From Sinorhizobium mexicanum (lineage in GTDB: Bacteria > Pseudomonadota > Alphaproteobacteria > Rhizobiales > Rhizobiaceae): DNA of 64,000 bases. The notes below the pieces were generated by a model. It searched no databases. It was given only the letters and a program-made list of their open reading frames with translations, and was not told where the DNA came from. Location of the stretch: NCBI RefSeq assembly GCF_013488225.1, contig NZ_CP041238.1:1451501-1515500 (forward strand), read 5' to 3'. The first letter of the stretch is position 1. The number at the start of each line of letters is the position of its first letter. The translations under genes and the position numbers were made by a program. Of this stretch, positions 3,293 to 7,784 are shown one piece after another.

Positions 3293-3760
3293 TCAAGGGA
3301 AGATGAGCCCGCCGCGGTAATCGAGCTCATAGGCTTCTTCGCCGTCGACGAAAATGACCTCGCGCCCGGAAAAGTGTTTGGTCCCGCCGCGGCTGCTGTC
3401 GATGTTGCAGCCATAAGCGTGCTGGTATTCCATGCCGCCGAGGAAATGGCGCTTTTCGTGGTACATCGTCTGCAATGCCGCCTTGATGACGGCGCCGGCC
3501 CGCCGCGCATCGATCAGGTCCGGACGGGTGATGCGGCCGAAATAATTCATCGCCCAGCGCGGTTTGCCATCGTGCCAAACCGCTTCCTGGCCGGCAAAAT
3601 CCGTTCCACCGAAATAGCTGTCGAGATAACGCCACGCGCCACGCTGGTGCCCAACATCGCGCGAGCCGGGTCTGTTGGCGGGAAGTGCCCCGCCGTCGCC
3701 GATATAGGTCTTCGATTTCGCCTCGACGATAAAGGCGGTGAGTTCCTCGATGCTGAACAT
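3293..3760 (-). CDS. DUF5680 domain protein, probably LexA-controlled
   Basis: A 155-residue protein of the DUF5680 family; no function is established. Family features visible are an N-terminal helix ending in KSKTYIGDG, the central AWRYLDSYFGGTDFAGQEAVWHD-type core, the FLGGMEY segment and the C-terminal GEEAYELDYRGGLI. I chose the ATG at 3760 rather than the one seven codons upstream because GGGAGG lies at the right distance before it. A GAAC-N7-GAAC box centred about 60 bp upstream of the start suggests SOS control. The gene is divergent from the small membrane peptide gene at 4045, which has its own box. It has no close neighbour on its strand. Confidence 0.8.
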   Translation of the reverse strand: MFSIEELTAFIVEAKSKTYIGDGGALPANRPGSRDVGHQRGAWRYLDSYFGGTDFAGQEAVWHDGKPRWAMNYFGRITRPDLIDARRAGAVIKAALQTMYHEKRHFLGGMEYQHAYGCNIDSSRGGTKHFSGREVIFVDGEEAYELDYRGGLIFP

Positions 3761-3812
3761 GAGCGTCCTCCCATTGCTCACGGAGGATGGCGCAACGTCG
3801 TCAGGCTGTAAA

Positions 3813-3827
3813 GAACAAAAAGGGAAC
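3813..3827 (-). promoter_or_regulatory. LexA-type operator (GTTC-N7-GTTC) upstream of the DUF5680 gene
   Basis: The plus strand reads GAACAAAAAGGGAAC, an exact GAAC-N7-GAAC direct repeat, the LexA box described for alphaproteobacteria. It lies 53 bp upstream of the start at 3760. No convincing -35/-10 pair was found around it. The dinB box at 10660-10674 in this window has the same form. Confidence 0.6.
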
Positions 3828-3996
3828 AGGCTCTTGTTGACGCCTTGGCTTGCGTCGATCCCAACGGAGGCGGTCTCGGCGCGTTCAATTCGGCCGGATC
3901 ACAGTTCACACCCGCAGTCCGCAATGCTGGCTGCCGTGGCGCATTAACCATGAGCGTTGAATTGCGGGATCTTTTATGCGGCCTTGCTTGACTATG

Positions 3997-4011
3997 GAAC
4001 AAAAAAAGAAC
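3997..4011 (+). promoter_or_regulatory. LexA-type operator upstream of the 28-aa membrane peptide gene
   Basis: The sequence GAACAAAAAAAGAAC is an exact GAAC-N7-GAAC repeat. It sits 4 bp downstream of a rhizobial-type -35 element CTTGAC (3987-3992), in the spacer and -10 region, where a repressor would block RNA polymerase. The -10 hexamer is poor (A-rich). The start codon is 33 bp downstream and an AAAGGAG ribosome site lies at 4031-4037. Confidence 0.6.
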
Positions 4012-4044
4012 AAAAGAAAAACAATAGCGGAAAGGAGCCATATT

Positions 4045-4131
4045 ATGACTGATTTCGTTCGTGATCTCGCCGCCTTCGCCTCCATGAGCCTGTTCATCGC
4101 CAGCATTTCGGTGATTGCGCTCGGATTGTGA
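4045..4131 (+). CDS. 28-aa single-pass membrane peptide, SOS-type control
   Basis: A short gene of 28 codons plus stop. It has a strong AAAGGAG ribosome site seven bases before the ATG. The peptide starts MTDFVRDLAAFAS, a short charged amphipathic N-terminus, and ends in a hydrophobic stretch (about residues 11-28, MSLFIASISVIALGL) long enough for one membrane span. A LexA-type box lies 33 bp upstream. Size, topology and control are like SidA of Caulobacter, a 29-residue LexA-regulated division inhibitor, but I see no basis for claiming homology. It lies 158 bp before dnaE, with no shared reading frame. Product unknown; a functional small protein is inferred from the ribosome site and promoter context. 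Confidence 0.65.
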   Translation: MTDFVRDLAAFASMSLFIASISVIALGL

Positions 4132-4289
4132 TCCTTCTGCGCCGGGGCGGCTTCGCAGGGCGCGGCCGCGTCGAATCTGTGCTGCCTCGGACGCAATGTT
4201 GAAAAAGAAGGCGGTCCCAGCCGTTGCGCTGGACATCAGGGACCGGAAACGGGATATCCTCTGCTCCGAACGGGAATCGGAGTGCAACG

Positions 4290-7783
<3,494 letters not shown>

Positions 7784-7784
<1 letters not shown>

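Follow-up and report, generated by a model that had tools for sequence, protein, structure and literature searches.

A 28-codon open reading frame (ORF) upstream of dnaE1 in Sinorhizobium mexicanum is probably the rhizobial orthologue of Caulobacter sidA, predicted to be controlled by LexA and to encode a peptide that would hold the septal wall-synthesis complex inactive after DNA damage; we give this reading a probability of about 0.8. The ORF lies in a 64,000-nt stretch of contig NZ_CP041238.1, here called the window, to which coordinates refer unless another record is named. The original prediction suggested that a SidA-like SOS checkpoint might exist in rhizobia but saw no proof of homology. 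Genome comparison now supplies that homology, through synteny and a profile score above 300 of 300 shuffles, and the proposed checkpoint gains support from the gene's slot beside dnaE1, its box, the box-to-start distance, the length and single span of the peptide, the profile match and the selection on the frame.

A boxed 28-codon gene ahead of dnaE1

The elements first reported at this site were confirmed: a CTTGAC beginning at 3987, a perfect GAAC-N7-GAAC box (GAACAAAAAAAGAAC) at 3997-4011, an AAAGGAG ribosome-binding site at 4031-4037, and a 28-codon gene for a single-span peptide, MTDFVRDLAAFASMSLFIASISVIALGL, with its ATG at 4045 and its stop at 4129-4131. All are on the plus strand. The TTGAC (3988-3992), a -35-like element, ends 4 nt ahead of the predicted LexA box, which was assigned from direct reading and conservation, and the ribosome site stands 7 nt ahead of the ATG of the sidA-like gene (4045-4131), assigned from pN/pS and from genus and family matches. 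The Kyte-Doolittle maximum over 19 residues is 2.23, sufficient for one span, and that of the Caulobacter-form peptide is 1.93. The ORF ends 158 nt before the first ATG (4290) of dnaE1, the replicative DNA polymerase III alpha gene (4290-7784, plus strand, named from S. meliloti annotation), with which a TTG at 4224 is in frame. Neither a consensus sigma-70 promoter, with no convincing -10, nor an intrinsic terminator was found in 3780-4320, and RNA from 4012-4300 folded no better than shuffles (z -0.68). The two genes are possibly co-transcribed, and since no terminator was seen ahead of dnaE, the SOS promoter may, less certainly, also raise dnaE1.

Upstream of the ORF are a lipoprotein-release-type permease (Pfam MacB_PCD/FtsX) and an ATPase of the same type (Pfam ABC_tran), both so named in S. 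meliloti, and a minus-strand DUF5680 gene (PF18931; 3293-3781), which has its own GAAC-N7-GAAC box upstream at 3813-3827. A DUF5680 gene was found in 24 of 50 loci searched (two were partial matches), and in 22 of the 24 an exact box lies no more than about 55 nt from the match, which makes this gene a candidate for a second SOS gene, as yet uncharacterised.

Taken alone, the box does not exceed chance expectation here. The window has three GAAC-N7-GAAC sites where 2.06 are expected, at least three occurred in 36 of 100 shuffles, and GAACN7GAACA occurs 51 times genome-wide versus 34 for a reversed control pattern; the case therefore rests on comparison among relatives. Eleven of the 51 genome boxes were read, and the gene behind the box could be named for four, namely lexA, ssb and two ImuA-like genes (the ssb call is above its NCBIfam cut-off, the two ImuA matches below theirs). 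The 16-mer GAACAAAAAAAGAACA upstream of ssb in the same genome is identical to the sidA-like box over 16 bases. In many relatives a third half-site follows after another 11-nt step; its counterpart in this genome is degenerate.

A dN/dS below one and a conserved ribosome site had been suggested as checks on the gene, and loss of the frame or the box in close relatives as evidence against it. Over 27 distinct sequences of the genus, pN/pS was 0.127, while the same stretch gave 2.3 and 11.6 in the other two frames; third codon positions varied at 22 of 28 codons and second positions at 2 of 28. This ratio and the third-position variation indicate a coding sequence under purifying selection. The ORF was matched at E<=10 in 51 of 100 relatives; within the genus, 32 of 33 genomes have it, its own counted. 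Loci upstream of dnaE could be read in 32 of the 33 (G023 had neither a peptide nor a dnaE match), and all 32 kept the ORF, the box and an equally spaced TTGAC; similar purine-rich ribosome sites were present in the relatives read. Conservation of box and ORF, together with the pN/pS of 0.127, rules out a chance ORF. One congener (G030:C55:163371-164245) has dnaE in two overlapping pieces, one with an internal TGA, from a sequencing error or frameshift.

Sinorhizobium meliloti Ak57 (CP090106.1, L354) carries the ORF at 92.9% identity, with box and TTGAC, in the gene order proS, permease, ATPase, ORF, dnaE; no CDS is listed over it in a gene table that is incomplete by its own account. This 3.7 Mb record is labelled pSymB, carries proS and dnaE, and is probably a mislabelled chromosome. 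The ORF was also found at 92.9% in three further Sinorhizobium records and at 64.3% in a Shinella record. In S. meliloti 2011, sORF25 lies in the dnaE1 5'-UTR, is translated according to Ribo-seq, and was suggested to be a uORF (PMC10117765). Judged by its position, in the slot that the Ak57 ORF occupies, sORF25 is very probably the 28-codon sidA-like ORF, although it was published as a possible uORF.

Most of what a class-level search with a rhizobial profile returned was noise (matches at E<=1 in 125 of 385 genomes, only two of them besides the source genome below 0.01), and anchoring on dnaE was used instead; Pfam and NCBIfam held no family for four of the peptides. An exact box stood within 700 nt of dnaE in 37 of 64 other relatives (mean 0.82, largest 4, in 40 shuffles), and a box plus a single-span ORF in 34 of the 64 (none in shuffles). 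Half-sites with gaps other than seven occurred in just 0-5 of the 64, indicating that the seven-base gap is specific. In further alphaproteobacterial families the box was present in 10 of 40 genomes and box plus ORF in 9 (shuffles gave none of the latter), and among named genomes in 20 and 18 of 30, respectively. The box-to-ATG distance had a median of 48-49 nt in all five sets. A TTGAC no more than 12 nt ahead of the box was common, not general: 32/32 in the genus, 22/34 in other relatives, 8/9 in the class, 5/18 among named genomes and 19/26 at boxed copies unlinked to dnaE. The box-plus-ORF test failed in 30 of the 64 non-genus relatives, in 31 of the 40 class genomes and in 12 of the 30 that are named, which suggests that the gene was lost, moved or diverged in many lineages.

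These samples comprised 64 of 67 non-genus relatives (G065 had no dnaE match, G075 a partial one, and G090 lay at a contig end), 40 of 117 further genomes of the class in which dnaE was matched (L101 and L111 shortened by contig ends), and 30 of 80 named-genome loci, found via a CtrA search. One locus (L233, G036) was anchored wrongly on a partial dnaE match and scored as a miss, though the profile matches that stretch. In another (L048, G069) the matching stretch is inside a longer open frame without a box.

Likeness to Caulobacter SidA

SidA is a 29-residue inner-membrane peptide, SOS-induced and a LexA target, that interacts with FtsW and FtsN and stops division through FtsW/FtsI/FtsN while leaving the Z-ring in place (PMC4211646). 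Deleting lexA in Caulobacter produces filaments, through sidA (PMC12700426), and AlphaFold 3 models by others, of low confidence, place SidA on TM7 of FtsW (PMC13396833). By inspection, 28 of the 30 named genomes had a hydrophobic ORF of 28-36 residues upstream of dnaE, which was absent from Hyphomicrobium NDB2Meth4 and Brevundimonas bacteroides. In the six named genomes of Caulobacter the ORFs have 29-30 residues, and five of them start MVRIARESLAL.

To place the published gene, we compared locus numbers: sidA is CCNA_02004 (PMC10769358), dnaE1 is CC1926 and recN is CC1983 (PMC1839093), and recN is also CCNA_02062 (PMC12700426). The offset of 79 at recN puts CCNA_02004 at about CC1925-1927, beside dnaE1. 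From locus numbers, length and LexA box, we conclude that the published SidA should be the Caulobacter ORF upstream of dnaE; C. crescentus was absent from the named loci, and fragments of the Caulobacter peptides had no match in the literature text searched.

Two profiles were compared, A1 (19 sequences, with outlying members picked by similarity to the window peptide) and A2 (13 Caulobacteraceae forms, picked by position upstream of dnaE). They aligned without gaps over 20 columns with an hhalign score of 22.2, against maxima of 13.5 in 150 full column shuffles and 15.0 in 150 shuffles that kept the N-terminal and membrane blocks apart. A2 matched 41 of 41 Caulobacter-genus genomes searched (42 match rows), some of which had supplied A2; because the profiles include sequences from some genomes later searched, hits of A1 and A2 are not independent. 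In all 30 Caulobacter loci read, dnaE was downstream of an ORF of 29-30 residues, and the box had no more than one mismatch. The box is exact in the rhizobial gene, whereas 13 of these loci have an exact box and 17 only a one-mismatch box. Most of the sidA promoters (L356-L385) have two boxes 17-18 nt apart, often with one mismatch each, unlike the rhizobial tandem half-sites spaced 11 nt apart.

The rhizobial and Caulobacter peptides are alike in their 28-30 residues, single span, GAAC-type LexA boxes and position upstream of dnaE1, and have a colinear core, R-D/E-x-x-A-x-x-S-x-x-x-F, in their N-terminal and central stretch; the likeness can be seen between MSRIVHDALSLVSV... from the genus Caulobacter (L381) and MSEIIHDVISFISV... 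from the Rhizobiaceae (L335). The rhizobial peptide differs in having 28 rather than 29 residues, in lacking a W after the conserved F, and in its C-terminal third, and in some Rhizobiaceae the gene is no longer beside dnaE.

That C-terminal third is also the most variable part of the rhizobial peptide, which may allow for a changed partner. Rhizobiales are polar growers that lack the canonical Rod complex (PMC8546619), and a true SidA orthologue might there act on a wall-synthesis or membrane partner other than FtsW/FtsN. We consider this unlikely, as the stretch held in common with Caulobacter is the N-terminal and central part.

A peptide of the TisB/DinQ kind, which would depolarise the membrane and slow the cell without blocking the divisome, is a less likely reading again. 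SOS peptides of this type have a structured leader and antisense RNA control. The homology and common position with a Caulobacter division inhibitor argue for a sidA orthologue, as may, less firmly, the leader RNA here, which is without unusual structure. The predicted form, a single-span SOS peptide, would suit either; E. coli DinQ is a toxic example (PMC3567139).

Copies away from dnaE

Within the Rhizobiaceae, a profile match at E<=0.01 was found in 123 of 151 genomes. At E<=1e-3 there were 114 matches, of which 72 lay on the dnaE strand no more than 2 kb upstream of that gene, 37 were elsewhere (in 36 genomes, five of them also with a linked copy), and 5 were in genomes without a dnaE row. 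An exact box was present at 27 of the 37 unlinked copies: 26 of 35 that were read together, plus L043 of the remaining two, which were read separately (L047 is unboxed). By eye, the neighbours of unlinked copies resemble carB, gamma-glutamyltransferase, lipB and RNase R genes, among others, and are often convergent. In two genomes of one genus (L043 and L318; G058 and G610) the boxed gene has left dnaE and stands before a carB-like gene.

The gene thus moves together with its box, indicating that it is its own SOS unit and not a dnaE leader. The least likely of the readings we weighed, that dnaE1 is tuned by translation of the ORF as a leader peptide or uORF, draws on the ORF's place in the dnaE1 5'-UTR, on the uORF role that the authors of the S. 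meliloti small proteome suggested for 5'-UTR sORFs including sORF25 (PMC10117765), and on the 72 linked matches, but a leader should stay with dnaE, and the 37 copies beside different genes, the shuffle-like folding of the leader RNA and the selection on the amino-acid sequence all speak against it.

Unboxed SidA-like ORFs, which may be phage-borne versions, also occur in stretches that by eye resemble phage DNA (L047, at 3438-3536 of that locus, L323, L322 and L349). The L047 stretch has a RecT-like ORF as well; a tblastn search of 50,697 phage records with one phage-like copy gave no match.

A candidate SOS division brake

If the peptide works as SidA does, LexA bound to the GAAC-N7-GAAC box would keep the sidA-like gene off until DNA damage activates RecA; LexA would then be cleaved and the peptide made, inserting in the inner membrane and keeping the septal wall-synthesis complex of FtsW/FtsI/FtsN inactive until repair is complete. 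For rhizobia, we infer LexA binding, damage induction, membrane insertion and the FtsW/FtsN target from homology with Caulobacter.

Other damage-induced membrane division inhibitors are known, including DidA of Caulobacter, YneA of Bacillus, SosA of Staphylococcus and ChiZ of Mycobacterium, and several of these are linked, as SidA is, to the septal wall-synthesis complex. They differ in other respects: DidA is SOS-independent (PMC4211646) and YneA has an extracellular LysM domain (PMC13396833). The Caulobacter authors describe yneA, divS, chiZ and sidA as unrelated genes, and sulA as not widely conserved outside the gamma-proteobacteria (PMC4211646). Among the matches listed in the literature searched, none named an SOS division inhibitor for rhizobia or Agrobacterium, and none reported SidA outside Caulobacter or named the rhizobial gene; the 2011 SidA paper, which lay outside that coverage, may mention homologues. 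The range of the sidA-like gene is wider than we found described in the literature searched.

More tentatively, and at somewhat less than even odds, SidA could be the ancestral SOS division brake of Alphaproteobacteria, sitting before the replicative polymerase gene to let a single SOS promoter halt division while raising DnaE1, and missed by gene callers because it is shorter than 36 codons; unboxed versions, carried by phage-like loci, could block division of the host. For the Rhizobiales, the sidA-like ORF is a syntenic, directly testable candidate for an SOS division inhibitor. It ties rhizobia to the best-studied alphaproteobacterial checkpoint, and it offers a candidate function for a translated S. 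meliloti sORF earlier proposed to be a uORF.
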